Assembly: GCF_013409345.1 (NCBI RefSeq)
Contig: NZ_JACCBB010000001.1
Span: 2,046,001-2,110,000 of the forward strand
Source of the DNA: Kineococcus aurantiacus
Lineage (GTDB): Bacteria > Actinomycetota > Actinomycetes > Actinomycetales > Kineococcaceae
DNA length: 64,000 bases
Direction of reading: 5' to 3'
The notes below the pieces were generated by a model. It saw only the letters and a program-made list of their open reading frames with translations, ran no database searches and was not told the origin of the DNA. Positions 12,467 to 47,408 of this stretch are shown piece after piece. A program made the translations under genes and the position numbers. Positions within the stretch are counted from its first letter, which is position 1. The number at the start of each line of letters is the position of its first letter.

Positions 12467-14859
12467 GGCGCCACGACCCCCGTCTCGAGCCGGCCGAGGG
12501 CGTGGGCGGCGCGGGCGGCGGCGGCCACCGCCGCGTCGCGCAGCACGGGCGGCAGGTCGTCCTGGGCGTCGCGCCAGCACTGCACCAGCACGAGCCGGAC
12601 GCCCCGCTCGTCGGCGACGGGGACGGTGAGCACCGACCGCGCGCCCAGGTGCCGGGCGGCCGCGGCGTCGACGACCGAGCTGGTCCCCGCGTCGGGCACC
12701 CACACGGGCCGCCGGCCGGCGACGGCGCGGGAGACGGCGCTGCGGGTGGAGGTGTCGACGACGTGCCCGTCCAGCGCGTCGGCGTCGGCGTCCCCGACGA
12801 CCCCCACGACGTCCCACCGCTCGGCCAGCGGGGAGATGCGCCGCAGGACGAAGCTGAAGTCGGGGCGGGTCAGGTCGTGGACGGCGCGGGCGAACCCGCC
12901 GCCCACGGCGCAGGCGTCCGCGGCGAGCTCGACGTCGGCCACGGCCTGCAGCAGGGCGTGGACGCGGTCCAGCAACCCGGCGGCCTCGGCACCCTCGAGG
13001 TGCTCGGCGACCAGACCGGCCAGGGCCCGCAGCTGGGCGCGGCGGCCGTCGTCCAGGGGGATCGGCAGCAGGTCGTACACGCACAGCACCCCCAGCGTGC
13101 GGCCGTGGGCGTCGACGACGGGCACGCCCGCGTAGTGCCGCACACCGGCCCGGCCCGCGACCCCGCCGGCCACCCGCGGGTCCGTCCGGCAGTCCAGCTC
13201 CAGGAGGTCCTGCTGCAGGACGGCCCACGCGCAGGGGGTGCCGTCGCGCGGTCCGCGGGTGACGTCGTGGCCGTGCGTGGCCAGGGCGTGCACGTGCTCG
13301 TCGGTGACGACGTTGAAGCTGGCGAACCGGGCCCCGGTGACGGCCGCGGCGAGCGCGGTGACGCGGCGCAGCAGCCGCTGGGAGCCGGAGGCGGACTCCA
13401 GGACCCGGTGCGCCAGCCGCAGCCGGTCCGCTTCGTCGACCGGCCGGGGCGCGCGGACCGGCTCGTCGGCGGGCAGGACGACCTCCCGCACGGGGGCGGG
13501 TGCGGCGGCGAAGACGTCGGCGGCGGGGACGGGCCGGGAGAAGTGGAAGCCCTGCAGGACGTCGGCCCCGAGCCCGCGCACGACCTCGGCGGTGCGGGCG
13601 TCCTCGACGCCCTCGGCGACGACCTCCACGGACAGCCGGTGGGCGAGGTCGACGAGCGCGCGGACGATGGCCGCGTCGGCCGGGGCCTGCGGGGCGGCCG
13701 CGACGAACGTCCGGTCGATCTTCAGCTCGTCGACCTCGAGCTGGCGCAGCATCGTCAGCGACGTGTAGCCGGTGCCGAAGTCGTCCAGGGACACCCGCGC
13801 CCCGGCCGCGCGCAGGGCGGCCAGGACGGCGGCGGCCCCGGCGGGGTCGGCGAGCAGGGCGCTCTCGGTGACCTCCAGGGTCAGGACGCCGGGGTCGAGG
13901 CGGTGGGCGGCGAGGACGTCGCGGACGGTCCCGACGAGCGTGGGCTCGCCGACGACGGCGGCGGACAGGTTCACCGAGACGCCCACGTCGTGCCCGTCGG
14001 CCCGCCAGGCGGCGCACTGGGCGACGGCCTCGCGCAGCACCCAGCGGGTCAGCGCGACGATCGCCTGGCTGCGCTCGGCGAGGGGGACGAACGCGCCGGG
14101 GCCCAGCAGCCCGCGCTCGGGGTGCTGCCAGCGCACGAGGGCCTCCACGCCCACGACGCGGTGGGTGCCGGCGGTGACGAGCGGCTGGTAGTGCACGCGC
14201 AGCTGCCCGTCGGCGATGGCGGCGGGCAGCTCGGTGTGCAGGGCGAGCGCGTCGAGGTCCACGGCGGCGGTGCCCTCGGCCACGGCCACCCGGCGGGGGG
14301 CGGTCCCGGCGCGGGCGTGGGCGACGTCGGCCGCGGCGAGCAGGTCCTCCAGGTCGCGGCCGTGGTCGGGGACGCAGGCGACGCCGACGGACGTCTCGGG
14401 CCGCACCCGCAGCCCGCGGCCGGGCCCCAGGTCGGGCAGCTCGACCGGTTCGAGCAGGGTGCTGCGCAGCGCCGTGCCCTCCTGGCGGCCGGTGGCCGGG
14501 GCGTCGCCGGCGGTGCCGGTGGTCAGGGGGCGCACGACGGCGAGGGTGTCCGGGCCGAGGCGGGCGACGACGGCGCCGGGCAGCTCGGCGAGGCGGCGGG
14601 CGGACTCGGCCAGGACGGCGTCAGCGGCGGGGCCGCCCAGGGCCAGCCGCAGCTCCCGCAGGTCGTCGAAGCCCACGACGCTGACGGTCCAGGCGGTCTC
14701 GGCGTCCTCGGCGACGGCCCGCAGGGGGGCGGCGCAGCGTTCGAGCAGGCCCCGGCGGCCGGGCAGGTCCGGGACGTCGCGGCGCGCGGCGCAGCGCCGG
14801 GCGGCGCGCGCGGCGAGGCGCCCGAGCAGCCCGGCGGCCGCGCGGGCGGGAGTGGTCAC
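12463..14859 (-). CDS. EAL phosphodiesterase with degenerate GGDEF and tandem GAF domains
   Basis: A 798-residue soluble protein. Residues 25-175 are a degenerate GGDEF domain (LGPDTL stands in place of the active-site motif). An EAL domain follows with all catalytic residues visible: GVEALVRW, VSVNLS, LEVTES, LDDFGTGYT, ELKIDRTF, VAEGVE and LQGF, so it should hydrolyse cyclic-di-GMP. The C-terminal 330 residues hold two GAF-like domains (first around FASFNVV...GVLCVYDLLP, second around FSFVLRR...RLVLVQCW). Having the GAF sensors after the EAL domain is the less usual order. GTG 14859 is preferred over GTG 14865 because GAACCT lies six bases before it. It is first in an operon with the membrane GGDEF gene. 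Confidence 0.88.
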   Translation of the reverse strand: MTTPARAAAGLLGRLAARAARRCAARRDVPDLPGRRGLLERCAAPLRAVAEDAETAWTVSVVGFDDLRELRLALGGPAADAVLAESARRLAELPGAVVARLGPDTLAVVRPLTTGTAGDAPATGRQEGTALRSTLLEPVELPDLGPGRGLRVRPETSVGVACVPDHGRDLEDLLAAADVAHARAGTAPRRVAVAEGTAAVDLDALALHTELPAAIADGQLRVHYQPLVTAGTHRVVGVEALVRWQHPERGLLGPGAFVPLAERSQAIVALTRWVLREAVAQCAAWRADGHDVGVSVNLSAAVVGEPTLVGTVRDVLAAHRLDPGVLTLEVTESALLADPAGAAAVLAALRAAGARVSLDDFGTGYTSLTMLRQLEVDELKIDRTFVAAAPQAPADAAIVRALVDLAHRLSVEVVAEGVEDARTAEVVRGLGADVLQGFHFSRPVPAADVFAAAPAPVREVVLPADEPVRAPRPVDEADRLRLAHRVLESASGSQRLLRRVTALAAAVTGARFASFNVVTDEHVHALATHGHDVTRGPRDGTPCAWAVLQQDLLELDCRTDPRVAGGVAGRAGVRHYAGVPVVDAHGRTLGVLCVYDLLPIPLDDGRRAQLRALAGLVAEHLEGAEAAGLLDRVHALLQAVADVELAADACAVGGGFARAVHDLTRPDFSFVLRRISPLAERWDVVGVVGDADADALDGHVVDTSTRSAVSRAVAGRRPVWVPDAGTSSVVDAAAARHLGARSVLTVPVADERGVRLVLVQCWRDAQDDLPPVLRDAAVAAAARAAHALGRLETGVVAP

Positions 14860-14865
14860 CCCCAC

Positions 14866-21488: not shown

Positions 21489-21590
21489 GGCTCTCCTCCT
21501 GGAGGGTCGTCGGGCGGCCGGCTCGGCTGTTCGATGCGGTGGCCCAGTGCTGGGGCATCGACGCACCGGCGGCCCACCTTGAACACCGGG

Positions 21591-21617
21591 CGCGGGAGTT
21601 CCCCGGGAATTCCCGCG
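21591..21617. promoter_or_regulatory. 27-bp imperfect dyad in the MCP/DUF4397 divergent promoter region
   Basis: Outer arms CGCGGGA and TCCCGCG and inner GTTCCC/GGGAA give a dyad with only two unmatched pairs, centred at 21604. It lies between the chemoreceptor (start 21488) and DUF4397 gene (start 21704). Its core GTTCCCCGGGAA recurs exactly at 23288-23299 before the sigma factor gene. Confidence 0.5.
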
Positions 21618-21703
21618 AGCGGCTGCATCCGGGACGGGCCACCGGCCGGAAGGGAGGGGTGACGGGCCGCGCCGAGCGGCCCGCGGACCAGGAGGAGAGA
21701 ACG

Positions 21704-22543
21704 ATGCGCACCACCCGCAGCACCGCCGCCCTCGTCGCCGCTCCCGCGCTCGCGCTGGCGGTCCCGGTCGCCCTGGCCGCCGCCCCGGCGAGCGCCGCCA
21801 CGCAGGGCGGCAGCGCCACCGTCTCGGTGCTGCACGCCGTCCCGGGCCTGACCGTCGACGTGTGGGCGAACGGTTCGCCCCTGCTGCCGGGTTTCACCCC
21901 CGGCACCCTCACCGACCCGCAGCAGCTGCCCGCCGGCAGCTACGACCTGGCCGTCTACCCCGCCGGGGCGGACCCGGCCACGGCGCAGCCGGCGATCTCG
22001 GCGAACGACGTGGAGGTCCCGGCGGGGGCGAACGTCACCGTCGTGGCGCACCTTGACGCGAACGGCGCCCCGAAGCTGACCCCGTTCGTCAACAGCCCCG
22101 ACGACCTGGCCGCCGGTGAGGCCGAGCTGACGGTGCGCCACGTCGCGGCCGCCCCGGCCGTGGACGTGCGCGCCGGCGGGACGCCCGTGCTGAGGGGGCT
22201 GACGAACCCGGGCGAGGCGAGCGCGACGGTCCCGGCCGGGACGGTGAGCGCCGACGTGGTCCTGGCCGGCACCGACCAGGTGGCGCTCGGCCCGGCCGAC
22301 GTGGACCTGGCCGAGGGGGCCGAGACGATCGTGTACGCGTGGGGTTCGGCGGCCGACGCGAACCTCGCCCTGGCCACGCAGGTCGTGCGGGGCGGCGGGC
22401 AGTCCCCGACGGGTGTGCCCGCCGGGGACGGCGGGGGCGCCGGCGCGGGCTGGGCGCCGTGGGTCGCGGCCGTCGGGGGCGTGGCCCTGGTCGGTGCCGG
22501 GGCCAGCGCGCTGATGGCCCGTCGCGCCCGTGCGGCGGCCTGA
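21704..22543 (+). CDS. secreted, C-terminally anchored DUF4397 domain protein
   Basis: A 279-residue envelope protein. A Sec signal peptide ([20 protein letters not shown], cleavage near ASA-AT) is followed by two DUF4397 repeats, each beginning with a VSVLHAVPG or [10 protein letters not shown] strand and continuing through VDV...G..VL, then a Gly-rich linker, a transmembrane helix ([21 protein letters not shown]) and a short basic tail RRARAAA. That end resembles a sortase substrate but I find no LPxTG-type motif before the helix. ATG 21704 has an AGGAGGAGA site. The class F sortase gene overlaps its end by 14 bases, the usual pairing in actinobacteria. Confidence 0.88.
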
Positions 22544-23213
22544 GCGCGCCGCGCGCCGCTGGAACCTGCTCGCCGCGGGCCTGGCCGTGGCCGGGACCTG
22601 CCTGGGTGCCGGGTGGTGGGCCGCGCGCCCGGCACCGGGTTTCGGGCAGCTGCCGGCCGCGGCGCCCGCGGCGGTGACGGTCGCGCCCACTCCCTCGGCG
22701 ACCCCCTCGGCGGCTCCCCCGGTGGCGGCTCCGGTGGTGGGGCGGCGGCTCGCCACCCCGACCGTCGCGCCGCGGCCACCGGCGCCGGTGCGCCTGGAGG
22801 TCCCCTCCCTGGGGGTCGACGCCGAGGTGGTGCCCGTCGGGGTCCGCGGGGACGGGGCCATGGAGGTTCCCGACGACCCGCGGCGGGTCGGCTGGTACCG
22901 GTGGGGGCCGGTCCCCGGGGCGGCGGGGAACTCCGTGCTGGCCGGTCACGTCGACACCCGCAGCGCCGGGGACGGGGCGCTGGCCGACCTCGCCGCCGTC
23001 GAACCGGGGGCGCTCGTGCGCGTCACGGGCGCCGACGGCGCCACCCGGGAGTTCCGCGTCACCGCCCGCGTGGCGGTCGACAAGGAGGAGCTCCCGCTGG
23101 CCGACGTGTTCGCCCGCCAGGGGCCGGCGCGCCTGGTCCTCGTCACGTGCGGCGGGCCGTTCGACCGGGCGGCCAGCCGGTACGAGCAGAACGTCGTCGT
23201 GACCGCTGAGTGA
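22530..23213 (+). CDS. class F sortase
   Basis: A 227-residue cysteine transpeptidase. One N-terminal membrane segment (about 11-30, WNLLAAGLAVAGTCLGAGWW) is followed by a Pro/Ala/Thr-rich linker to about residue 85 and the sortase beta-barrel. The catalytic residues are His140 in LAGHVD, Cys207 in LVTCGG and Arg217 in SRYEQN, the compact spacing of the class F group. Sortases join proteins to cell-wall precursors or hold them at the surface. The only obvious partner is the DUF4397 protein upstream, which the start overlaps (GTG 22530), implying coupled translation. An N-terminal anchor with an extracellular active site fits a housekeeping type role. Confidence 0.88.
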   Translation: MRRPERAARRWNLLAAGLAVAGTCLGAGWWAARPAPGFGQLPAAAPAAVTVAPTPSATPSAAPPVAAPVVGRRLATPTVAPRPPAPVRLEVPSLGVDAEVVPVGVRGDGAMEVPDDPRRVGWYRWGPVPGAAGNSVLAGHVDTRSAGDGALADLAAVEPGALVRVTGADGATREFRVTARVAVDKEELPLADVFARQGPARLVLVTCGGPFDRAASRYEQNVVVTAE

Positions 23214-23287
23214 GTCCGGTGGTGGGTGCTGGTGGTCCTGCGGGTGGAGGGTTTCGACGGGGGTTCCCGGGGCCCGGTGCCGCCGGG

Positions 23288-23300
23288 GTTCCCCGGGAAC
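23288..23300. promoter_or_regulatory. palindromic site upstream of the ECF sigma gene
   Basis: GTTCCC-C-GGGAAC is a perfect dyad about 110 bases before the sigma factor -10. Its first twelve bases equal the core at 21598-21609, and a related GTTCCCGGGG lies at 23263-23272. Confidence 0.4.
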
Positions 23301-23399
23301 GGGTCCGGCGCTCCGGCGGTGGTGTTGCGCCGCAACGCCTCCGCAGGTCCGGTCGGGGTGCGGCCGGCCCGCTCCGGTGGCGCGGCGGGACCCGCCCCC

Positions 23400-23405
23400 T
23401 ACGGT
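23400..23405 (+). promoter_or_regulatory. -10 hexamer, leaderless promoter of the ECF sigma gene
   Basis: TACGGT ends six bases before GTG 23412, which places the start well inside the longer open frame that begins at 23226. Confidence 0.5.
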
Positions 23406-23411
23406 GGTGCC

Positions 23412-24026
23412 GTGTCCCCAGGGCTCCCGTCGCCGGCCGGGGCCGGCCGGTCGCCCGACGGGGCCGGACCGGCCTCCTGGGACGACGCGGCCGTCGGGCG
23501 CGCGGTGCGCGCCGGCGACGAGCGCGGGCTGCGCGAGGCCTACGAGCGCTTCGGCCCCCTCGTCCACGGCCTGGCCCGCCGCCGCCTGGACGAGCAGGAC
23601 GCCCAGGACGTGGTGCAGGCGGTGTTCGTCTCGGCCTGGCGCTCGCGCGAGCGCTTCGACCCGCAGCGGTCCACGTTCGCGGCGTGGCTGGTCGGCATCA
23701 CCCGCCACCGCCTCGCCGACGCCCTGGCCCAGCGGTACCGCCCCGAGGTGGTCACCGAACCGGGCCAGCTGCAGGGCGGGGACGCCGCGGTGCTGGGCGA
23801 ACCGGTCCCGCAGGACGCCGCGACCGACCGGGTCGTGCTGCTCGCCGAGGTCGACGAGCTCGGCGAGCCGCAGCGGACCGTCGTGCGGCTGGCGTTCTTC
23901 GCCGACATGACGCACGAGCAGGTCGCGGCCGCCACGGGACTGCCGCTGGGTACGGTGAAGAGCCACCTGCGACGGTCCCTGCGCCGGCTGCGCACACGCC
24001 TGGAGGAGGACGGTGCCCGTGACTGA
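23412..24026 (+). CDS. ECF-type RNA polymerase sigma factor (SigK-like pairing)
   Basis: A 204-residue extracytoplasmic-function sigma factor. Region 2 spans about 30-100: LREAYERFGPLVHGLARRRL, then EQDAQDVVQAVFVSAWRS with the core-binding helix, then FAAWLVGITRHRLADAL. Region 4 is the C-terminal HTH: EPQRTVVRLAFFADMTHEQVA, then LPLGTVKSHLRRSLRRLRTRL. The downstream overlapping gene encodes an RskA-like membrane anti-sigma factor, so the sigma factor is probably held at the membrane until a signal releases it. GTG 23412 was chosen for the leaderless TACGGT; upstream residues of the open frame are compositionally non-protein. Confidence 0.92.
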   Translation: MSPGLPSPAGAGRSPDGAGPASWDDAAVGRAVRAGDERGLREAYERFGPLVHGLARRRLDEQDAQDVVQAVFVSAWRSRERFDPQRSTFAAWLVGITRHRLADALAQRYRPEVVTEPGQLQGGDAAVLGEPVPQDAATDRVVLLAEVDELGEPQRTVVRLAFFADMTHEQVAAATGLPLGTVKSHLRRSLRRLRTRLEEDGARD

Positions 24027-24831
24027 GCCCACCGCCGCCGGGCCCCCCACCGGGCACCTGGACGAGGACGACGCGGTGCTGGCCGCGCTGGGCGACCCGC
24101 TGGCCCCGGCGGCCGAGCAGCACCTGGCGGGCTGCGCCCGCTGCCGCGAGGAGGTCGCCGGCTGGGCCCGGCTGACCGCTGCCCGCGGCGCCGAGGACGT
24201 CGAGCGGCAGGCCCCGCCCGCCGGCACGTGGGCGCGGATCGCCGCCGAGGTGGGGTTCACCGACCCCGGGACCGCCCCCGCCCCCGCCCCCGCGCCCGCT
24301 CCCGCCCCCGCGCTCGCGGTCGTCCCCGACCCCGCGCCCGCCGGGCCGGCCGCGCGGCGCGCCCGCCCGCGCCGCACCCCGCTGCTGCGGCGCTGGCCGC
24401 TGGCGGCCGCGGCGGTGCTCGGGCTGGCCGTGGGGGTGGGCGCGACCCGCTGGGCGGACGCGCCGGACCCGGCGCCGCAGGCCGTGCGGCCCGTGGTGGT
24501 GTCCTCGACGACGCTGCGCCCGCTCACCGCGGGCGACGCCGCCGCGAGTGGCACCGCGCAGGTCACCGACGAGGACGGGGCCGTGCACCTGCACCTGGCG
24601 CTGCGCGGGGTGGCGTCCCCGCGCGACGGTTACCTGGAGGCGTGGCTGCTCGACGCCGACGGCGGGCTGGTCTCGCTGGGGGCGCTGGCCGGGGACGAGG
24701 TGACGGTGGCCCTGCCCGGCGACGTCGACCTGACCCGCTTCGACGTCGTCGACGTCTCGCGCGAGCCGCTGGACGGGGACCCGGCCCACTCCGCCGACAG
24801 CGTCCTGCGCGGCACCCTGTCGGCGGCCTGA
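24013..24831 (+). CDS. RskA-like transmembrane anti-sigma factor
   Basis: A 272-residue partner of the sigma factor just upstream, overlapping its end by 14 bases. The N-terminus has the zinc-binding anti-sigma motif His37-x3-Cys41-x2-Cys44 (EQHLAGCARC). A Pro/Ala repeat linker (about 85-115) precedes one transmembrane helix (WPLAAAAVLGLAVGVGA). The extracytoplasmic C-terminal part matches the anti-sigma-K RskA domain: GYLEAWLLDADGGLVSLG, then VDVSREPLDGDPAHS. Members release their sigma factor after stepwise proteolysis. GTG 24013 or 24019 could be the start; GGAGGAGG lies before both. Confidence 0.88.
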   Translation: MPVTEPTAAGPPTGHLDEDDAVLAALGDPLAPAAEQHLAGCARCREEVAGWARLTAARGAEDVERQAPPAGTWARIAAEVGFTDPGTAPAPAPAPAPAPALAVVPDPAPAGPAARRARPRRTPLLRRWPLAAAAVLGLAVGVGATRWADAPDPAPQAVRPVVVSSTTLRPLTAGDAAASGTAQVTDEDGAVHLHLALRGVASPRDGYLEAWLLDADGGLVSLGALAGDEVTVALPGDVDLTRFDVVDVSREPLDGDPAHSADSVLRGTLSAA

Positions 24832-34067: not shown

Positions 34068-36809
34068 TCACACCCGCCCGGCGAGGGCGGCGGCCAGGTG
34101 CGAGCGCCGGCTCACCTGCAGCTTGGCGAAGGCGTGGTGCAGGTGCGAACCGACCGTCCGGTGCGAGAGGTAGACCTGGTCCGCGATCTCCCGGTTGGAC
34201 AGACCCTGCGCCGCCAGCACGGCCACCATGAGCTCCTGCGCGGTCAGCGACCGGACCGCGAGGTCGCGCGGCGGCCCCTCGGACGCACCGGCGTCGTCCG
34301 TCCCGCCGGCGGCCCGCAGTTCCTGGCGGGCCCGGTCCGCCAGGGGGATGACGAGGAGCTCGTCGAAGACGCGCAGGGCGGCGACGAGCTGGTCGCGGGC
34401 CTCGGTGATCCTGCGCTGACGGCGCAACCACTCGCCGTAGTGCAGCCGGGTGCGGGCCACGTCGAAGCCGGTCCCGGCGCGGCGGCCGTGCTCCAGGGCG
34501 GCCCGGAAGTGCTGCTCGGCCGCGTCGTCACCGGCCAGCAGCGCGCGCGAGCGCTCCAGGAGCAGCCCCAGGTGGGCCGAACCGCTGACCTGCACGGCGT
34601 CGGACGCGGTGCGGAGCCAGTCGTGGACGGCGTCGAGCCGGCCGGTGCGGACAGCCGCCTCGGCCAGGTCGCCGCCGGCCCACAGGGCGACGGGGGCGTT
34701 GACGGCCGCCCCGGCCAGCTCGCGCAGCGCGTCCGCGTGCCGCCCGTCGTTGAGGGCCACCACCCCGGCCGCCCACGCGGCGCTCGCCGCCACCCGCGCG
34801 AACGGCACGGCCGCCGGGAGGGCCTCCGCCTGCCGCAGGGCCTCCAGGGCCCGGTCCCGTTCACCGCCCCACGCGCGCGCCCTGGCCACGACGGCGGCGG
34901 CCATGGCCGCCACGACGGGCAGGTCCAGCTCGCGGCTGAGGCGCAGGGCCTGCTCGGCGTCGGCCAGCCCGCCCGCCAGGTCACCCGCCGTGACCCGGGG
35001 CGTGGCCCGGCCGCACAGGGCGATGGTCTCGTCACCGGTGCGCCCGGAGCCGTGGAAGACGTCGACGGCGCTGCTCCAGCACGTCTCGGCGACCACCAGG
35101 TCGCCCGCGTCCTCGGCCGAGAACGCCAGGCAGTTCAGCAGGACACCGTCCACGTCCTGCGCCTCGGTGCGGAACCGCTCGAACGTCGCGACGTCCAGGG
35201 GGGCGCCGGGGTCGACGAGGGCCAGCCCGATCCGGCGCAGGCTGCTGCCGGGGTCCTCCCCGGCCAGGGCGGAACGCACCGCGGCCCGGACGTCCCCGGG
35301 CTCCTGCAGGACGTAGCACTTCGTCGCGGCCCAGACGAGGACCTCGGCCCGGTCGACGCGCTCCGGCAGGTCGCGGGCCAGGTCCACCAGGTCGAGGGTG
35401 CTGCGTCCCCGGTGGTCCGCCGTCATGCTCAGCAGCCAGTCCGTGCGGGCCGACCGGCGGACGACCTCGAACTGGGTCGGGTCGACGACCGCGCGCACCT
35501 GCGTGAGCAGTGCCGCCGCGTCCACCGACGCACCCGCCTGCCGCGCTGCCTCGGCGGCCGAGGCGAGCAGCCGCGCGCGGTCCTGCGGTCGCGGGGTCAG
35601 TGCACTGGCGCGCCGCCACAAGGTGGACGCCTCCGCCGTCGCCCCCTGCCGGAAGACGAGGTCGGCGACGTCGGCGAGCTCGGCGGCGACCCCCGTGTCC
35701 CAGCCCGTCACGGCGGCGGCGCGGTGCCGGACGCGGCGCGCCGGGGAGGGCACGGCCTGCGCCAGGGCGGTGTGGACCTGCGAACGCTCGGCCGAACCCG
35801 CCGCGTCGTACAGGGCCGAGCCGACCAGGGGGTGGCGCAGGAGGAACCGGTCGCCCTCGGAGCCCAGCAGCCCCGCCCGCTCGGCCGGTGCGAGGTCACC
35901 CGCCCCCAGCCCCAGCAGGCCCAGGGCGGTCAGGACCTCCGGCTGGGAGGCGTCCTGCCCCGCGGCGACGACGAGCAGGGCCCGGCGGGTGCCGGCCGGC
36001 AGCCCGTGGACCTCGCTCAGGAACGTCTGCTCCAGGCGCCGGCTCATGGAGATGCGGTGCCCGCCGTCGGCGTCCCGACCCGTGCGGACCCACTGGGTGG
36101 CCAGCTCGGTGAGCGCGAGCGGGTTGCCCAGGGACTCCTCCAGCACGCGCGCGCGGACCCGGGCCGGCAGGTCCGGGGCGCGTGAGGACAGCAGCGCCCC
36201 GGCGTCACCCGGTGGCAGGGGTTCCAGCCGCACGACGTGCGGGAAGGCGCGGGCCGGGGACGGGCGGGACGGGTCGGGACGGGTGGTGGCCAGCACCAGG
36301 GCCCGGGTACCGCCCAGCCGCTGCGGCAGCGAGACGAGGGTCTCGGTGCTGGAGGGGTCCACCCAGTGCAGGTCCTCCAGGACGAGCGCCAGCGGCTCGT
36401 CCTGGGCCGCCTCCTCGAGCAGACCCGTGGTGGCCAGGCTCAGGACCAGCCGGTCCACCGAACCGCCGGCCGCGCGCCCGAAGATCACCTCCAGGGCCTG
36501 GCGCTGACGGGCGGGGAGGGCGTCGACGCGGTCCAGGACGGGGTGCAGCAGTTCGTGCAGCCCCGCGAAGCCGGTGTCCTCGCCGCCGCGGAACCCCCGG
36601 CACCGCAGCACCCGGAAACCCGCCGCCGCGGCCTCGGCGGCGAGCGCGGAGACCAGCGCGGTCTTGCCCAGGCCGGCCTCACCCACCACGAGCGCACCCG
36701 AACCCCGGCCGGCGGCGGCCTGGCCGAGCAGGCCGCGCAGGAGCGCGAGCTCGTCGAGGCGTCCCACGAGGACGGCGGCCGGGTCGTGCGGGCCGGTGGG
36801 CGTCGTCAT
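34068..36809 (-). CDS. LAL-type (MalT-like) ATPase-LuxR transcriptional regulator 1
   Basis: A 913-residue LAL regulator. The AAA/STAND ATPase starts with VGRLDELALL and Walker A GEAGLGKT (43-50); Walker B is LALVLEDLHWVD near residue 145, then a helical, TPR-like middle part to about 830, and a C-terminal LuxR HTH (about 845-908: LTAQELMVAVLAAQGLSNRE, then HRTVGSHLHHAF). Such proteins activate catabolic or secondary-metabolite operons after binding ATP and an inducer. It shares architecture with those at 39872 and 42762, all on the minus strand. Its divergent partner is the hydrolase operon at 37027, which carries a candidate LuxR dyad at 36927. No clear ribosome binding site is seen before ATG 36809. 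Confidence 0.92.
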   Translation of the reverse strand: MTTPTGPHDPAAVLVGRLDELALLRGLLGQAAAGRGSGALVVGEAGLGKTALVSALAAEAAAAGFRVLRCRGFRGGEDTGFAGLHELLHPVLDRVDALPARQRQALEVIFGRAAGGSVDRLVLSLATTGLLEEAAQDEPLALVLEDLHWVDPSSTETLVSLPQRLGGTRALVLATTRPDPSRPSPARAFPHVVRLEPLPPGDAGALLSSRAPDLPARVRARVLEESLGNPLALTELATQWVRTGRDADGGHRISMSRRLEQTFLSEVHGLPAGTRRALLVVAAGQDASQPEVLTALGLLGLGAGDLAPAERAGLLGSEGDRFLLRHPLVGSALYDAAGSAERSQVHTALAQAVPSPARRVRHRAAAVTGWDTGVAAELADVADLVFRQGATAEASTLWRRASALTPRPQDRARLLASAAEAARQAGASVDAAALLTQVRAVVDPTQFEVVRRSARTDWLLSMTADHRGRSTLDLVDLARDLPERVDRAEVLVWAATKCYVLQEPGDVRAAVRSALAGEDPGSSLRRIGLALVDPGAPLDVATFERFRTEAQDVDGVLLNCLAFSAEDAGDLVVAETCWSSAVDVFHGSGRTGDETIALCGRATPRVTAGDLAGGLADAEQALRLSRELDLPVVAAMAAAVVARARAWGGERDRALEALRQAEALPAAVPFARVAASAAWAAGVVALNDGRHADALRELAGAAVNAPVALWAGGDLAEAAVRTGRLDAVHDWLRTASDAVQVSGSAHLGLLLERSRALLAGDDAAEQHFRAALEHGRRAGTGFDVARTRLHYGEWLRRQRRITEARDQLVAALRVFDELLVIPLADRARQELRAAGGTDDAGASEGPPRDLAVRSLTAQELMVAVLAAQGLSNREIADQVYLSHRTVGSHLHHAFAKLQVSRRSHLAAALAGRV

Positions 36810-39871: not shown

Positions 39872-42625
39872 TCACCCGGCCGACGGGCCGAGGAGGTCCA
39901 GGTCGGCCAGCGCGGCCCGCAGCCGCGCGCGGCTGGTGATCCCCAGCTTGGGGAACAGCTTGTACAGGTGCGCCCCCACCGTGCGGTGGGACAGGTACAG
40001 CTGGTCGGCGATCTCCTTGTTGCTCATCCCCTGCGCGGCCAGCCGGGCGATCTGCAGCTCCTGGGCCGTCAGCGGGGCACCGGAACCCGGCCGCACGTCC
40101 CCCACCCGCACGGCCCCACCGGCCGCGCGCAGTTCCTGGGCCGCCCGTTCGGCGAGCGAGCGGGCCCCGCGGCGCTCGAACCCGCCCACCGCGGCGGCCA
40201 GCACGGGGCGGGCGTCGACGGGACGCTGCTCGCGGCGCAGCCACTCCCCGTACGCCAACTGCGTCCGTGCCAGCTCCACGGGCGCCTCGGCGCGCTCGGC
40301 GGCCGCCAGGGCCGCCACGAAGTGCTCCTCGGCGGCCGGGTCCAGCAGGAGGGCGCGGGCCCGGTGGACCAGGAGCCGCAGGTGGTCGGAGCCGAACAGC
40401 TCGGCGGCGGGCGCGACCCGTTCGAGGACGTCCAGGGCCTGCGCCGGGGCCCCCGCGCCCGCAGCGGCCTCCGCCAGGTCCGCGACCGACCACGCCGCGA
40501 ACAGCGGGTAGGTGCCGACGTCGAGCAGCTCGGCCAGCGCGTCCTCGAAGCGGCGCTCCTGCAGGGCGATGAGCCCGGCCGCCCACGAAGCGCCCGCGGG
40601 CACCTGCGGCACGGCGTCGACGGCACCGACCGCCCGGACCCGGCCCAGCGCCTCGGCCGCCTCACCCGGCCGTCCCGTCAGCGCCAGGGCACGGGCCGCG
40701 GTCGCGCTCGCCGACGCGGCCACCATCGCCATCCCGACGTCCACCGCCGTGCGGTGGGCGTTCTCCGCGTCCTGCAGCGCCTCCGCCAGCTGCCCGCGGA
40801 CCAGCCGCACGGACGCCAGGCCGTTGAGGGCCTGCCCCTCGTCGCCCGGGGAACCGGCGCGGTGGAAGGCCTCGGCGGCCCGGCTCCACGCGGCCTGCGC
40901 GACCGGGAGGTCCTGCAACCGCTCCGCGGCCTGCCCGAGGGCCAGCAGCATGTACGGCTCGTCGGCGAACGTGGCGAGCAGTCGCGGCAGCCCGTCCCGC
41001 ACCCGCGGGTGGGCGAGCGGGTCGGCGACCGCGAGCGCCACCTGCTGCAGCGGGTGGGGGAACCCGGCGTCGAGCGCCGCGAGCCGGTCGTGCACGGCGC
41101 GGCGCCACGTCGCGTCCGTGGCCTGGTTGGCGGCGTGGAAGGCGGCGTTGGCCAGGACGACCACGCGCTGAGCGGGATCGGTGGTCCGGTCGGCGGCGAG
41201 CTCGTCGTCCAGCTGCAGGGCCTCCTGGACGAACCGCCCGGTGTCGTGGGGCGCCTCACCGGCCGCGATGCCGAGCATCGAACGCAGGTAGGCCACCTGG
41301 AAGCGTTCCTGCGGTGCGCTGACGAGGGCGGCCGCGGCGTCCAGGGTGGCGGCGGCCTCGACGGTCGCCCCGGCCTGGCGCAGGTACTGCGCGGCGCTGA
41401 GCAGACGGGTGGCCCGCTGGGAGGGGTCGGGCGTGAGCTCGGCGGCCCGCCGCAGGGCCGCGGCCGCCTCGCTGCGGGCGCCCCGCTCGGCGGCCAGGGT
41501 CCCGGCCGCCTCGAGCTCGGCGGCGACCGCCTCGTCCCGGTCGGGCACGGCGGCGGCGCGGTGCCAGGCGGCCCGCCCCGGGTCGCGGCTGGCCGCGGCC
41601 AGGGCCTGGTGCACCCGGAAGCGCTCCGCGGACGAGGCCGCGCCGTGGACGGCCGAGCGCACCAGCGGGTGGCGCAGCTGCGCGCGCTCACCGGTGGTGG
41701 TGACCAGCCCCTCCCGTCCGAGGCGGTCCAGGTCCTGCGGGTCCAGGCCCAGCGCGGCGGCGGCGTCGAGCAGCTCGGCGACCAGGAGGTCCTCCCCCGC
41801 CGCGGCCAGCAGGAGCATCGTCCGGCTGGAGGCCGGCAGGGGCGCGAGGGCGTCGAGGAAGGCCCGCTCCAGGCGACGGGTCGTGGGCAGGGGGCCGCTG
41901 GTCAGGGGTGTGCCGCCGCTGAGCGCGGCGGCGAACTCGCGCAGCGCCAGCGGGTTGCCGTGCGCCTCGTCCAGGACCCGGCGGCGGGCCGTGGCGCCGA
42001 GGTCGGGCTCCAGGGGGTGCAGGGAGTCCAGCAGGCGCTGCGCGTCGTCGTCGTCGAGCGGCCCCAGGGGCAGCACCTCGGCCACCTCCTCCAGGGCCGA
42101 CGCCGACGCCGACGCGGTGGCGTCCCGGCGGGCCGTGGCCACCAGCAGCACCGGTGCACCGCCCAGACGGCGGGCGACGAAGGCGACGACCCCCGCGGTG
42201 GAGGCGTCCAGCCAGTGCGCGTCCTCCACCTGCAGCAGGACCGGTCGCTGCGCGGCGGCCTCCTCCAGCAGGCCCAGGACGGCGAGGCCGATGAGGAGCC
42301 GGTCCGGCGAGGGGCCGACCTGCAGGCCGAGGGCGGTCAGCAGCGCGGAGCGCTGGCGCGGGGGCAGGGCGTCGACCTGGTCCAGGACGGGGTGCAGCAG
42401 CTCGTGCAGGCCGGTGAAGCCGGTGGCGGCCTCGCTCTCGAACCCCTGGCAGCGCAGGACGAGGAACCCGGCGTCCTGCGCGGTGCGCGCGACGGCCGTC
42501 GCGAGGGTGGTCTTGCCGATGCCGGCCTCCCCCTCGACCAGCACGGCGCCGCCGCGTCCCCCGCCGGCCCGCAGGGCGGTGAGGAGCTGGTCGAAGCGGG
42601 CCAGCTCCCGCTCGCGGCCGATCAC
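39872..42625 (-). CDS. LAL-type ATPase-LuxR transcriptional regulator 2
   Basis: A 917-residue LAL regulator that starts MIGRERELARFDQLL with Walker A GEAGIGKTT (32-40), Walker B LLQVEDAHWLD, a long helical repeat region, and a C-terminal LuxR HTH (LTAQELQIARLAAQGMSNKE, then LSHRTVGAHLYKLFPKLGI). Its HTH is closer to that of the third regulator (42762) than to the first (34068). GTG 42625 is behind GGAGGACAGCCAGG. On the minus strand TATCGT at 42674-42679 is a plausible -10. I found no CATC-N5-GATG dyad in its own promoter, unlike the third regulator. Confidence 0.92.
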   Translation of the reverse strand: MIGRERELARFDQLLTALRAGGGRGGAVLVEGEAGIGKTTLATAVARTAQDAGFLVLRCQGFESEAATGFTGLHELLHPVLDQVDALPPRQRSALLTALGLQVGPSPDRLLIGLAVLGLLEEAAAQRPVLLQVEDAHWLDASTAGVVAFVARRLGGAPVLLVATARRDATASASASALEEVAEVLPLGPLDDDDAQRLLDSLHPLEPDLGATARRRVLDEAHGNPLALREFAAALSGGTPLTSGPLPTTRRLERAFLDALAPLPASSRTMLLLAAAGEDLLVAELLDAAAALGLDPQDLDRLGREGLVTTTGERAQLRHPLVRSAVHGAASSAERFRVHQALAAASRDPGRAAWHRAAAVPDRDEAVAAELEAAGTLAAERGARSEAAAALRRAAELTPDPSQRATRLLSAAQYLRQAGATVEAAATLDAAAALVSAPQERFQVAYLRSMLGIAAGEAPHDTGRFVQEALQLDDELAADRTTDPAQRVVVLANAAFHAANQATDATWRRAVHDRLAALDAGFPHPLQQVALAVADPLAHPRVRDGLPRLLATFADEPYMLLALGQAAERLQDLPVAQAAWSRAAEAFHRAGSPGDEGQALNGLASVRLVRGQLAEALQDAENAHRTAVDVGMAMVAASASATAARALALTGRPGEAAEALGRVRAVGAVDAVPQVPAGASWAAGLIALQERRFEDALAELLDVGTYPLFAAWSVADLAEAAAGAGAPAQALDVLERVAPAAELFGSDHLRLLVHRARALLLDPAAEEHFVAALAAAERAEAPVELARTQLAYGEWLRREQRPVDARPVLAAAVGGFERRGARSLAERAAQELRAAGGAVRVGDVRPGSGAPLTAQELQIARLAAQGMSNKEIADQLYLSHRTVGAHLYKLFPKLGITSRARLRAALADLDLLGPSAG

Positions 42626-42761: not shown

Positions 42762-45700
42762 TCACGCCAGCGCTCCCGGTCGTGGCACCGCGGCGGCGAG
42801 CGCGCCGGCCTGCACGGGCAGCACCGGCATCACGGGCAGCACGGGCAGGCCGTGGGCGGGGGCGCTGGCTGCGGCGGGCGGGCCGAGCCGGGCGGCCAGG
42901 ACGGTCACGTCGTCCTCCACCTCCGCGGCCACACCCGCCAGCAGCCGGTCCACGAGCGCCTGCGGAGCCAGTCCCCTGCCCCGGGCCAGGTCGGCGCCCA
43001 GTTTCTCCAGCCCGGTGACGACGTCCTGCGTGCGGGTCTCCAGCACCCCGTCGGTGACCAGGACCAGGGTCGAGCCGGCGGGGACCTCGCGCTCGTGGTC
43101 GCGGCGCACGGCCTGCGCGTCCACCCCCACCGGCAGCTCGGGGACGCTGCGCAACGGCTCCACCGCGCCGTCCGGCAGCAGCACCAGCGGCGGGGGGTGC
43201 CCGGCGTTCGACCAGCGCAGGCGGTAGCAGCCCGAGGGGGCCGGCGTCGCCTCCAGGACCACCGCGGTGGCCCCGGCGGGCAGGGCCAGGCGCTCCACGG
43301 CGCAGTCCAGGCGGGTCAGGGCGTGCGCCGGGGAGGGCCGGTCGAGCACGTGGCTGGCCAGGACCGCGCGCAGCGAGGCGGCCGTGGCGGCGACCGCCGG
43401 GCCGTGACCGGTGACGTCGCCGACGATGAGGACGGTCGAACCGCCCTCGCCGGCGAAGGCGTCGTACCAGTCCCCGCCGACCTCCTCACCGGCGTGCGGG
43501 CCCGGTCCCCCGGCCAGCCCGGCGGCCAGGCGACGGCCGGCGAGCTGCACGTGGGGCGTGGAGACCAGCCGCTCGGGGACCACCGCCTGCAGCGAGCGCA
43601 GCAGCGAGCTCCCCCGCGCGGCGGCCAGGACGCGTTCCAGCGCCTGGGCGCAGGTCGCGGCGAACTCCTCCAGCGTGCGGCGCACGGCCGGCGGCAGGTC
43701 CTGCTCGGTGTCCCAGCCGAGGACGAGGAAGCCGACGACCCGCCCGGACGCCGTCAGCGGCAGGTCCACCAGCGCCCGCAGACCCGCCGAGCGGACGACC
43801 CCCTGGACGAGGGGGCAGCGGGTCTCGAAGGTGGCGAGGGTCTCGTGGAAGTCCCCCCGCCCCCGCCGCGCGGGGGCCAGGGACGGCGACTCGTGGGGCA
43901 GGGACGCCGTCCGCCAGCCGTGGGCGTCGACGTCGAGACCGCCCCCGCGCACCGACCAGTGCCGCAGCACCCCCGGGCGCGGGCCGCGCAGCACGACGCT
44001 GACCAGCGTGGGGTCGAAGTCGGTGACCAGCTGCCGGGCGGCCGCCGCCGCGACCTCGTCGGCGCTGGCGGCGACCACGGCGACGTCCGCGAAGCGGGCC
44101 GACAGCGCGACGGGGGCGGGCGCGGGCGGGACGTCCGGGGACGGTCCCGCGGCGGGCCGCGCGCCCACGGCCCCCACCGGCACCGGCACGGGCTCCGGCA
44201 CGGGCGCGGATTCCGGCGGCGCAGCGGCCGGGGTGGGCTCGTCGACACCCGCGGGGTGGGCGCGCGGACCGGCGATGGCGTCGCGCAGCTGGGTCCGGTG
44301 CGTGATGCCGAGCTTGGGGAAGGCCTTGTACAGGTGCGCGGCGATGGTGCGGTGGGACAGGTAGACCTTGTCCGCGATCTCCTTGTTGGTCAGGCCGCTG
44401 GCCGCCAGGCGGGCGATCTGCAGCTCCTGCGCCGTCAGCAGCGCGGCCGGGTCCTCGCCGCCGTCGCCGACCGCGACCGCGGGCACGACCCCGGCGGCGC
44501 GCAGCTCGGCCCCGGCCCGCCGGGCCAGGGACCGGGCCCCGGCGGCCTCGAAGCCGGTCAGCGCGGCCGCGAGCAGCTCGCGGGCGTCGACGATGCGCCG
44601 CTGCCGGCGCAGCCACTCCCCGTGCAGCAACCGGGTGCGGGCCAGCTCCAGCGGGCAGGACCCGTCCGCACCCGCCCGGCCGGCCGCCTCGAAGGCGGCC
44701 TGCGCGCCGTCGGCGTCGCCGTCGTGGGCGTGCAGCAGCGCGCGGGCCCGGTGCACCAGCGCCTGCAGGTGGTGGGCCTGCAGGGACTGCGCCTCGCGCT
44801 CGGCCGCGGCCGCGGCGGCCCGGGCGGCGGCGAGCACCTCGGGCCGTCCGGTGCGCACGGCCGCCTCGACCAGGTCGCCCAGGGCCAGGGCGGCGGTGGG
44901 CGGGTGCACCCCGACGCCCTGCAGCTGGGTCCAGGCGTCCTCGGGACGCTGCTCGGCGAGGGCGACGAGACCGGCCGCCCAGCGCCGCGAGGCGACGGTG
45001 ATGGCGAACGGGCGGGGACCGGTCAGCCCGGCCGACCGCGCGCACGCGGCCAGGGCCTGCGGGTGCTCCCCGCGCCAGGCGTGCGCCCGGGCCAGCAGGG
45101 CCTCGGCGTAGCCGGCCATGAGCAGCTGCTCGGAGTCCACCGCGATCCGCAGGCTCAGCTGCAGGTCCGCCACGGCCCCCTCCACCTGGCCGGTGGCCAG
45201 GCGCAGGGACCCGCGCCCGGCCAGGGCGTGCGCCTCGTCGGCGACGGCACCGGTGTCGTGGGCGGTGCGCACCGCCAGGTCCCACAGCTCGTGCGCCCCC
45301 TCCAGGTCGTGGACGGCCTCGGCGACGTGGGCGACGTGGGCCACGCCGTCGGACTGGCGCTGGGCGGCGTGCGCGGCCAGGACCGGGAAGCGGCCCTGGA
45401 CCCGGGCGCCGTGGCGGTGCGGGTCCAGGGCCGCCAGGGCCACGTCCAGCAGCGGGTGACCGGGGGCCACGGGCAGGGCACCGAGCGCCGCGGCGACCAG
45501 CCCCCGCACGCGCTCGTCCACCCCGAACCCCGAGGCCTGCACCGCCGCGCGGAACAGCAGGGACAGCCGCTGCTCGACGGCACCGTCGCCGTCGGGGCCG
45601 GCGAGGCGCTCGCAGACCGCCACGAGCCCGCGGACCAGGTCGGCGGGTTCACGGCCGTCGCCGGTGTGGACCACCGACAGCACGCTGGAGGTCAGGGCGA

Positions 45701-47201
45701 GGCGGCACACGACCGCGGGGTCCTCGGCGAGGGGTACGGCGGTCCGCACCACGCGGGCCGCCTCGGCGACCAGCCCGGACCGGCGGGCGACCTCGCCCGC
45801 GGCGGCGAGCCGGCGGACGCGCGCGGGCACCTCGGGGGACAGCTCCGCGGCCCGCTCCATGGCCGCGAACGCCTCCTCGGGCGCGCCGCGGCGCACCGCC
45901 TGGTGGGCGGTCGCCTCCAGGGCAGCCGCGACGTCCTCGTCGGCGGCGTGGGTGCCGGCCGCCCGGTGCCACACGGCCCGGCCGGGGTCGGCGGCCACCC
46001 CGGCCAGGGCCCGGTGGGCGGCCGCGCGCTCCGGCAGGCTCGCGCCGCCGTACACGGCCGAGCGCACCAGGGGGTGGCGGAAGCGGACCTGGCCCTGGGC
46101 CACGCCGACGAGGTCGGCGTGCTCGGCGGGGTCGAGGTCGGCGACGGCGCGCTCCGGCGCGCCGGAGGCGCGGACCAGCCGGGTCAGGGGCATCTCACCG
46201 CCCTCGGCGGCGACGAGCAGCAGGAGCCGGCGGGTGGCCGCGGGCAGCCGGTCGACGTCCGCGAGGAAGGCCTGCTCCAGCCGCTGGGTGGTCGGCAGGC
46301 TCTGCCCGGGCGGGAGCACGTGGCCGGCGGCGGCCAGGGCGCTGCCCAGTTCCCGCAGCGCCAGCGGGTTGCCGCGAGCCTCCTCCAGCACACGGGCGCG
46401 GGCGGCGGGCCGCAGCCCCGTGACGGCCGCGTCCAGCAGGGTGGCCGCCGCGGCGGGGGCCAGCGGCTGCAGCTCCAGGTGCTCCCAGGGCGCGGCCCGC
46501 CACCGCGGGGAGGTCCCGCCGCTGGTGCGCACGGTGGCGACGAGCAGCACCGGGGAGGTCGTCAGCCGCCGGGCGGCGAAGGACACGACGTCGGCGCTGG
46601 CCGCGTCGAGCCACTGCAGGTCCTCGACGACCACGAGCAGGGGGGCCGACGCGGCGGCCTCCTCGAGCAGTCCCAGCGCGGCCAGGCCGATGAGCAGCCG
46701 GTCCGGGGCGGGACCGTCCTCGTGGCCGAACGCGGTCAGCAGCGCCGAGCGTTGTCGCGGCGGCAGCGCGTCGACGTCCGGCAGCAGGGGGTGCAGGAGC
46801 TCGTGCAGCCCCGTGAGGCCCCCGGCGGTGTCGGCGTCCAGCCCTGTGCAGCGCAGCACCCGGGTCCGGGGGCCGGCGGCGCGCACGAGCGCCGAGACGA
46901 GGGTGGTCTTGCCGATGCCCGCCTCGCCCTCCACGACCACCGCCACGCCGTGGTCGCGGGACGCCGTGAGCCGCCGGCGCAGGTGCGCCAGTTCGGCGTC
47001 GCGCCCCACGACGCCCGTACCGGCGGGGGCCGCGTCCCCGTCCACCCCAGCGACCCCGTCCCCCGGCACCTGCTCGGGTGGCGGCACGGGGAGCACCACC
47101 GCGGGCCCGGCGGCGGGGTCGGCGGCGGGCCCGGCCACCCGTCCCCGCCCGCGGGGACGCGCGGTGGTCCCGACCCGGGTCCGGTCGTCGGTGGTGGTCA
47201 T
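42762..47201 (-). CDS. LAL regulator fused to GAF and SpoIIE-type PP2C phosphatase domains
   Basis: A 1479-residue protein. After a Pro/Ala-rich 60-residue leader come an ATPase with Walker A GEAGIGKTT (92-100) and Walker B VVVEDLQWLD, helical repeats, and a LuxR HTH (about 912-975: LTAQELQIARLAASGLTNKE, then LSHRTIAAHLYKAFPKLGI). Here LAL proteins normally end. This one continues with a Pro-rich linker, a GAF-like domain (about 1030-1190) and a PP2C phosphatase (about 1214-1445) with all metal motifs: EVGGDWYD, VGDVTGHG, SNAGHPPP, TDGVLE and EDDVTVL. The last 30 residues are a LPVLPVMPVLP-type tail. ATG 47201 has AGGAGGAAC. A near-perfect operator dyad lies in its promoter, suggesting autoregulation. 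Confidence 0.92.
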   Translation of the reverse strand: MTTTDDRTRVGTTARPRGRGRVAGPAADPAAGPAVVLPVPPPEQVPGDGVAGVDGDAAPAGTGVVGRDAELAHLRRRLTASRDHGVAVVVEGEAGIGKTTLVSALVRAAGPRTRVLRCTGLDADTAGGLTGLHELLHPLLPDVDALPPRQRSALLTAFGHEDGPAPDRLLIGLAALGLLEEAAASAPLLVVVEDLQWLDAASADVVSFAARRLTTSPVLLVATVRTSGGTSPRWRAAPWEHLELQPLAPAAAATLLDAAVTGLRPAARARVLEEARGNPLALRELGSALAAAGHVLPPGQSLPTTQRLEQAFLADVDRLPAATRRLLLLVAAEGGEMPLTRLVRASGAPERAVADLDPAEHADLVGVAQGQVRFRHPLVRSAVYGGASLPERAAAHRALAGVAADPGRAVWHRAAGTHAADEDVAAALEATAHQAVRRGAPEEAFAAMERAAELSPEVPARVRRLAAAGEVARRSGLVAEAARVVRTAVPLAEDPAVVCRLALTSSVLSVVHTGDGREPADLVRGLVAVCERLAGPDGDGAVEQRLSLLFRAAVQASGFGVDERVRGLVAAALGALPVAPGHPLLDVALAALDPHRHGARVQGRFPVLAAHAAQRQSDGVAHVAHVAEAVHDLEGAHELWDLAVRTAHDTGAVADEAHALAGRGSLRLATGQVEGAVADLQLSLRIAVDSEQLLMAGYAEALLARAHAWRGEHPQALAACARSAGLTGPRPFAITVASRRWAAGLVALAEQRPEDAWTQLQGVGVHPPTAALALGDLVEAAVRTGRPEVLAAARAAAAAAEREAQSLQAHHLQALVHRARALLHAHDGDADGAQAAFEAAGRAGADGSCPLELARTRLLHGEWLRRQRRIVDARELLAAALTGFEAAGARSLARRAGAELRAAGVVPAVAVGDGGEDPAALLTAQELQIARLAASGLTNKEIADKVYLSHRTIAAHLYKAFPKLGITHRTQLRDAIAGPRAHPAGVDEPTPAAAPPESAPVPEPVPVPVGAVGARPAAGPSPDVPPAPAPVALSARFADVAVVAASADEVAAAAARQLVTDFDPTLVSVVLRGPRPGVLRHWSVRGGGLDVDAHGWRTASLPHESPSLAPARRGRGDFHETLATFETRCPLVQGVVRSAGLRALVDLPLTASGRVVGFLVLGWDTEQDLPPAVRRTLEEFAATCAQALERVLAAARGSSLLRSLQAVVPERLVSTPHVQLAGRRLAAGLAGGPGPHAGEEVGGDWYDAFAGEGGSTVLIVGDVTGHGPAVAATAASLRAVLASHVLDRPSPAHALTRLDCAVERLALPAGATAVVLEATPAPSGCYRLRWSNAGHPPPLVLLPDGAVEPLRSVPELPVGVDAQAVRRDHEREVPAGSTLVLVTDGVLETRTQDVVTGLEKLGADLARGRGLAPQALVDRLLAGVAAEVEDDVTVLAARLGPPAAASAPAHGLPVLPVMPVLPVQAGALAAAVPRPGALA

Positions 47202-47222
47202 GTTCCTCCTCGGCTCGACCGT

Positions 47223-47264
47223 GATCGTGGTCTGGCCGGGGCCGGCCGTCACCGGTCGGATGAC
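47223..47264 (-). promoter_or_regulatory. candidate LuxR-type operator plus -10 of the LAL-PP2C gene (site D)
   Basis: GTCACC-GGTCG-GATGAC at 47248-47264 is a 17-bp dyad with one mismatch from GTCATC-N5-GATGAC. On the minus strand a CACGAT hexamer (47224-47229) starts 27 bases from the dyad centre, so the site would sit near -40 of the gene ending at 42762 and allow autoregulation. Confidence 0.5.
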
Positions 47265-47408
47265 TCAACTTCGCCGGGCCGACGCGCACCGGCGGCGGGG
47301 CGGGAGCGCGCAGCCGGTGGCTCGTCCGGTGACGTGCTCGCGCCCTCCCGGCCCGCGTTCCCGGGCGGCAGGTGCGCCTCCCGCGGGTGGGTGCGGCCCG
47401 GAGGTGGT

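Follow-up and report, generated by a model that had tools for sequence, protein, structure and literature searches.

The locus and its reading frame

The stretch of DNA analysed here, referred to as the window, comprises 64,000 nucleotides (bases 2046001-2110000 of contig 1; the genome measures 5.03 Mb in two contigs). Positions 42762-47201 of its minus strand hold a gene in which a LAL regulator (STAND NTPase, TPR arm and LuxR-type helix-turn-helix, HTH) is joined through a linker to a GAF domain and a PP2C phosphatase domain, as judged from one ORF, the Pfam matches and a full-length ortholog. The enclosing minus-strand ORF (42762..47252 in the ORF list) runs for 1496 codons without interruption, and its GC content by codon position (0.86/0.57/0.97) is gene-like. 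The ATG at 47201, which gives a product of 1479 aa, is preceded by a Shine-Dalgarno-like stretch, GAGGAGGAAC, and the ortholog in a second genome (G005) starts with a GTG at the aligned place, behind GAGGAGG; for these two reasons 42762-47201 was accepted as the correct extent of the gene. Residues are numbered from the GTG at 47252, the ATG at 47201 being residue 18. An 18-base conserved stretch upstream of the fusion (47252-47269) was considered as a shared operator and dropped, as it occurs only once in the window.

An earlier note on this DNA had proposed that 42762-47201 encodes one chain of STAND/LuxR, GAF and PP2C parts, with about 500 residues added behind the HTH. The single chain is borne out by the 1496-codon open frame together with the start-site evidence, and the architecture by the order of the Pfam matches (AAA_16, GerE, GAF_2, SpoIIE); the residues counted after residue 989, the end of the HTH match, amount to 507. 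Because the HTH thus does not stand at the very C-terminus, the protein contains a LAL yet was filed as a fusion variant and not as a plain LAL.

Domains of the fusion protein

All features of the gene lie on the minus strand. The LAL half begins with a P-loop NTPase (residues 81-238; 46539..47012), matched by AAA_16 with 69.8 bits (Pfam cut-off 32.6) and carrying an intact Walker A motif, GEAGIGKT, at 109-116 and a Walker B-like VVVEDLQWLD at 207-216. Residues 78-1000 were modelled with AlphaFold2 from 24 alignment rows (pLDDT 88.7, pTM 0.80). Model residues 1-410 aligned with MalT (8bob_C; Z 19.7, 370 residues, rmsd 5.0), and the STAND protein 6mfv_A matched the LAL model over 479 residues (Z 20.3, rmsd 16.6); the NOD of the fusion protein is predicted to have a MalT-like fold. 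The TPR-like arm and sensor region (about residues 421-925; 44478..45992), defined from the same model, is predicted to be helical throughout, with most blocks at pLDDT >90; the Pfam scan gave no TPR match in the fusion protein itself. The top structure match of the arm was the human APPBP2 complex (8jal_B; Z 23.2, 393 residues, rmsd 4.9), and Rap proteins matched it at Z 21-23 (323-340 residues, rmsd 4.9-5.8), helical-repeat matches that would reflect a common arrangement only. The LuxR-type HTH (GerE, residues 938-989; 44286..44441) scored 48.6 bits in Pfam against a cut-off of 23.5, and it retains the columns that are invariant across all 24 aligned LALs. To the 22 non-orthologous LALs of that alignment the LAL half is 34-48% identical. 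The best NCBIfam match was TIGR03903, at 60.6 bits far below the cut-off of 705.75.

Behind the HTH follows a Pro/Ala-rich linker (about residues 996-1052; 44097..44267); it is 52-56 aa long, variable and Pro-rich, and differs between the two species by two in-frame gaps of 2 aa. The GAF domain (about residues 1053-1215; 43608..44096), called from the GAF_2 profile and the predicted fold, is the weakest domain call of the chain. GAF_2 matched residues 1062-1206 of the whole chain with 28.2 bits, 0.4 below the Pfam cut-off of 28.6, and no GAF model was matched at E 0.001 when the whole G005 chain was scanned with Pfam. When the C-terminal 431 residues were scanned alone the score rose to 31.7 bits, above the cut-off, and GAF_2 (E 0.001) was matched in 47/47 aligned modules, G005 included, as was SpoIIE (47/47). 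The GAF-like domain of the earlier note therefore stands, given the score obtained without the LAL half and the GAF-like predicted fold, though with 28.2 bits in the whole chain. An AlphaFold2 model of residues 1040-1470, built from 47 alignment rows (mean pLDDT 87.3, pTM 0.69), comprises a GAF-like fold, one helix and a PP2C fold. Its residues 6-178 aligned with a phytochrome chain (8bor_D; Z 19.3, 168 residues, rmsd 2.8), and the predicted continuous helix from GAF to PP2C covers residues 1188-1224 (43581..43691), that is 149-185 of the 431-residue piece.

The SpoIIE/PP2C domain (about residues 1256-1460; 42873..43487) is identified by Pfam (SpoIIE, residues 1270-1456, 132 bits, cut-off 25), by structure matches and by the retention of the metal-binding aspartates. 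The four phosphatase motifs that had been listed for it were each located in the sequence: GGDWYD at 1259-1264, GDVTGHG at 1278-1284, TDGV at 1400-1403 and DDVTVL at 1447-1452. D1261, D1264, D1279, D1401, D1447 and D1448, among which the metal ligands of this family lie, are retained and invariant in 47/47 rows; GDVTGHG and AGH, too, are intact. The best structure match of the GAF-PP2C model was Rv1364c (3ke6_A; Z 29.2, 223 residues, rmsd 2.1), and SiaA (6k4e), SpoIIE (5ucg) and RssB were matched as well; full-length RssB (3eq2_B) aligned from model residue 140, the linker helix included, at rmsd 5.6. The predicted layout, GAF - long helix - PP2C, is that of RsbU/RssB-type phosphatases. Structure prediction, proposed earlier as a check, thus yielded models of a MalT-like NOD, a helical arm and a GAF-helix-PP2C unit (pLDDT 87-89).

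Conservation of the fusion in a second species

G005, a genome of the same genus, contains a full-length fusion in one 1484-codon frame (L084:9402-13856, minus strand), 85% identical to that of the window. Window positions 33291-54451 are colinear with G005 DNA at 88-92% identity, the order of the genes being unchanged across about 21 kb. G005 has about 2.4 kb of extra DNA directly upstream of the fusion (L084:13902-16269, versus window 47295-47399), which contains an ABC ATPase gene, and about 0.8 kb further on. The doubt raised earlier, that a stop might be missing between HTH and GAF, is removed: no stop was lost, because a full-length ortholog stands in the same gene order in a second species and the gaps at the junction keep the frame. 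An assembly or sequencing artefact, for example a stop lost between two adjoining genes, is for this reason a negligible prospect.

The two fusions were compared domain by domain for identity and NG86 dN/dS. The values were 0.895 and 0.37 for the NTPase part, 0.873 and 0.51 for the TPR arm, 0.924 and 0.43 for the HTH (residues 930-995), 0.914 and 0.37 for the GAF and 0.893 and 0.39 for the PP2C domain, against 0.642 and 0.58 for the linker, 0.636 and 1.09 for the N tail and 0.438 and 0.78 for the C tail; synonymous change being low in this GC-rich DNA (73-80%, 4-kb steps), the absolute dN/dS values are rough and it is the contrast between domains and linkers that matters. The two neighbouring LAL genes compared in the same way gave 0.896 and 0.43, and 0.898 and 0.29, values that resemble those of the fusion's domains. 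Every domain of the fusion is under constraint, and the LAL half and the GAF-PP2C half are constrained to a comparable degree. On these sequence comparisons, the fusion is real and is kept by selection.

Distribution and relation to other LALs and phosphatases

The part of the protein running from HTH through linker and GAF to PP2C (612 aa) was used as a query for the rarity of the arrangement. Full-length matches were found in 2/11 genomes of the genus, and the same two genomes were the only ones in the family (2/12) and in a sample of the order (2/297); in a sample of the class one genome in 197 had such a match, the window's own. The order and class figures come from samples searched with strict E-values, in which scoring was confined to the top 4 or 6 candidates of each genome, and all of these counts refer to orthologs of this fusion, so that unrelated fusions of LuxR and SpoIIE would escape them. 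The remaining matches in these lists begin behind the HTH, with the sole exception of one locus in the window's genome (L088, see below). In 20/20 other LAL homologues whose match spans the HTH, 0-28 aa remain behind it, compared with 488-496 residues in the two fusions; this count leaves out five LAL rows in which the match ended before the HTH, three of them frames of 885-895 aa and two cut by the end of the locus. The statements that LALs normally end at the HTH and that the architecture is rare agree with these figures.

Of the 47 aligned GAF-PP2C modules, 7 lie in frames cut at the locus end; none of the other 45 (45/45) has a LAL-type NTPase in frame, and a LuxR HTH is present in L088 only. 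Six peptide patterns searched against genome_contigs (84,980 species), a collection that may omit the window's own and very near genomes, gave 75 loci, none with an ORF that combines HTH and PP2C. Among 72,556 plasmid records, 124 matched the HTH-GAF-PP2C part; in no record did the match extend over 80% of its length. A set of 116 sequences (the window and 115 loci chosen mostly by similarity to the fusion) contained 75 PP2C-like ORFs, 7 of which gave a match to the HTH profile as well, namely the L088 relic and six ORFs that are copies of the two fusions. The architecture is not described in the literature searched, a body that subscription papers mostly lay outside. According to the accessible part of one study, it is not unusual for SpoIIE-like phosphatase domains to be fused to further domains, GAF, HAMP and FHA being named (PMC2887360), which argues against a higher class of novelty. 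None of the components is new; what is unusual is their arrangement, which is real and under selection and has so far been seen in two species.

At L088:1573-3951 (minus strand; genome C1:2204572-2206950), a GAF-SpoIIE-HATPase gene is immediately preceded, in the same frame, by the decayed remains of a LuxR HTH. The relic, which stands without the rest of a LAL, scored 20.2 bits with GerE (cut-off 23.5) and 80.9 bits with a profile from this LAL family. L088 was rejected as a second fusion, as its orthologs in G005, G007, G001 and G006 gave no HTH match at E 0.0001 and the codon-position GC of the relic stretch (0.90/0.69/0.93) is not gene-like.

Relatives of both halves are at hand in these genomes. 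Further LAL genes with 42-48% identity to the TPR-HTH part were found in G000, G005, G008 and G003 (4/12 genomes, E 1e-55), and SpoIIE was matched 31 times in the window's genome, two of these matches being pieces of one frame. The best-scoring other module among the matches listed, from a genome of another order (G317), is 42% identical over 371 residues. A recent copy of another phosphatase was rejected as the source of the module, since no other module among the matches listed exceeds 44% identity and the stem is long: the branch leading to the fusion pair measures 1.63 changes per column and the tips 0.02 and 0.11. The module had therefore diverged strongly by the time the two species separated, and it has been retained ever since; as long branches meet at the fusion pair in the tree, a donor of GAF-PP2C is not nameable. 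The fusion GAF-PP2C differs from its relatives at 4/17 near-invariant columns (residues 1226, 1241, 1243 and 1291); given these changes and the long stem, its function may have shifted.

Genomic neighbourhood and search for partners

Two LAL paralogs without GAF-PP2C lie on the same strand downstream of the fusion. The nearer one (39872..42625, minus strand, 917 aa, 47% identical to the LAL half) is 136 bp away, and it is perhaps co-transcribed with the fusion; the second (34068..36809, minus strand) has 913 aa and is 41% identical to the LAL half. The three LAL genes (34068-36809, 39872-42625 and 42762-47201) stand within about 13 kb, and in G008 five related LAL matches were found within 47 kb; the LALs are a locally expanding regulator family. 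Between the 917-aa and the 913-aa LAL, two alpha/beta hydrolases and a SLAC1-type channel are encoded on the plus strand. Upstream of the fusion is an MFS transporter gene on the plus strand, which in G005 is set apart by the extra DNA.

The statement that the window holds no anti-sigma or STAS partner was corroborated for the 52 ORFs scanned, in which neither STAS nor HATPase_c_2 was matched at E-value cut-offs between 1 and 0.0001 (of the short ORFs beyond the gene set, those with gene-like codon use were scanned), and by a six-frame search of the genome, which placed no HATPase_c_2 match inside the window. The nearest HATPase_c_2 (RsbW-like) gene lies directly outside the window, next to a methyltransferase gene; it begins at 2110899, at a distance of 17.7 kb upstream from the fusion start. 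Genome-wide, the six-frame search gave 37 HATPase_c_2 matches, 28 of them above the cut-off, some of which are presumably ordinary histidine kinases. RsbQ and RsbP are a hydrolase-PP2C pair in the accessible part of PMC3183031. An RsbQ-like partner was dropped here, as the two nearby hydrolases, when compared with solved structures, matched esterases and similar enzymes and none of the matches listed is named RsbQ (best 60 of 62, 8 of 8).

Possible mode of action and alternatives

We favour, with about even confidence, a bifunctional reading: the fusion would be a one-component regulator, and STAND assembly on DNA would also gather the phosphatase domains. The LAL half would be a MalT/LAL-type STAND switch: a ligand on the TPR-like arm would open the NOD, whereupon the protein would multimerise and contact DNA through its LuxR HTHs. 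The C-terminal part would be a PP2C of the RsbU/Rv1364c type under GAF control: the GAF would supply the phosphatase with a second input, and the long GAF-PP2C helix would switch the enzyme by dimerisation, as in RsbU. Because both outputs sit on one chain, LAL assembly would be expected to raise the local concentration of GAF-PP2C and so favour the active dimer. With inducer and GAF signal both present, a promoter would be switched and a Ser/Thr-phosphorylated partner dephosphorylated together. The substrate would most likely be a STAS-type antagonist encoded elsewhere in the genome, a STAS protein being the default substrate for this type of PP2C.

Both switches have precedents in the accessible parts of published work: MalT-type STAND proteins multimerise when inducer opens the NOD (PMC4381067), and RsbU-type phosphatases are activated when a helical linker dimerises the PP2C domains (PMC12143880); the two switches could therefore be coupled in a protein that has both parts. 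In the same part of the latter source, signals from a variety of sensors are relayed in this family of phosphatases by linker helices and by dimers of the enzyme, and the authors' prediction extends the RsbU linker model to GAF-PP2C proteins (PMC12143880). Since the linker of the fusion is variable and Pro-rich, tight allostery across it is not implied; its flexibility makes effects of concentration and location more plausible than rigid allostery. Speaking against the bifunctional reading are the lack of a STAS or RsbW-like match in the window ORFs scanned, the distance of 17.7 kb to the RsbW-like gene, the variable linker, the long stem, the changes at 4/17 near-invariant columns, the presence in 2/11 genomes and the whole-chain GAF match, which is weak here and missing at E 0.001 in G005. 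A more specific and decidedly tentative version is that inducer-driven STAND assembly on the promoter would control transcription and at the same time activate the tethered PP2C, making an AND gate of the LAL and GAF ligands; one protein would then set an operon and, in the same act, release an alternative sigma factor or dephosphorylate a promoter-bound partner.

One possible explanation, a little less probable still than the AND gate, is that the halves are independent modules on a flexible string and that the fusion does no more than keep them in equal numbers and in one place. The variable Pro/Ala linker with its in-frame gaps would fit this, as would the separate occurrence of relatives of the halves (20/20 LALs without an extension, 45/45 GAF-PP2C modules without a LAL NTPase); the halves are nevertheless kept together in two species and, multimerisation being a known switch of both kinds of protein, some coupling is likely. 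Two proteins might also be made from the one gene, through internal initiation in the linker or cleavage, a scenario we regard as very unlikely. The linker has in-frame GTG codons, one of which in G000 has GGAG upstream, but it contains no ATG and no G005 linker GTG has such a site; with no ATG and no ribosome-binding site conserved between the two species compared, an internal start in the linker is unsupported.

A further scenario, unlikely but ahead of two separate products, is a STAND-controlled phosphatase in which the LAL serves PP2C mainly as sensor and scaffold, while the HTH either mediates dimer contacts or no longer has promoters to act on. Sensor-PP2C fusions are the common layout of the phosphatase family in the accessible part of PMC12143880, which speaks for it, but the HTH is 92% identical between the species and keeps the columns invariant in 24 LALs. 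A PP2C domain that is a non-enzymatic adaptor, as in E. coli RssB, would be in line with the long stem branch and the changes at residues 1226, 1241, 1243 and 1291; against this, all the aspartates that bind metal are retained and GDVTGHG and AGH are intact, and we consider it highly improbable.

Comparison with known systems

With LAL/MalT-type regulators the fusion shares the P-loop NTPase, a predicted NOD like that of MalT (8bob), the helical TPR-like arm and the LuxR HTH, and it is set apart from the 20/20 LAL homologues that end 0-28 aa after the HTH by the 507 residues behind it. With RsbU/RsbZ-type GAF-PP2C phosphatases (PF07228) it shares the predicted succession of GAF, long helix and PP2C and all metal ligands; it differs from the 45 other aligned GAF-PP2C modules by the LAL-type NTPase, L088 alone among them having a (decayed) HTH. 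Usually, a DNA-binding output and a Ser/Thr phosphatase output reside on separate proteins. Rv1364c of M. tuberculosis, the closest solved PP2C (3ke6; 25-26% identity), is also a multi-domain actinobacterial signalling chain. As far as the accessible text of PMC12143880 goes, it carries PAS, PP2C, anti-sigma and anti-anti-sigma domains, its own partners, on one chain; the fusion, unlike Rv1364c, has a transcription factor attached and lacks partner domains on the chain. PimR-type SARP-LAL regulators, in the accessible part of the sources, resemble the fusion in that a LAL part is joined to a further signalling domain, and in TOMM kinase/cyclase fusion proteins (TIGR03903) an AAA_16-related part is joined to further domains; of the partner domains named there (SARP, kinase, cyclase), none is a phosphatase that follows a LuxR HTH.

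With STAND and GAF-PP2C parts on one chain, the ligand-gated control of an operon could be linked directly to partner switching. The fusion offers a test case for whether forced multimerisation upstream suffices to activate a PP2C, in line with the dimer model for RsbU-type enzymes in the accessible part of PMC12143880, and it illustrates how such modules recombine in a lineage rich in both.

Other genes of the window

At 12463-14865 (minus strand) the window encodes a cyclic-di-GMP protein with GGDEF (33-189), EAL (212-445) and GAF (496-624) matches in Pfam, the GAF standing behind the enzymes; a sensor domain before GGDEF/EAL enzymes is the more usual order. At 21539-24831 (plus strand) a DUF4397 protein, a sortase, a sigma-70-type (ECF-like) factor and an RskA-like anti-sigma factor are encoded in a row, likely a surface-linked sigma module whose anti-sigma factor belongs to another class than RsbW.
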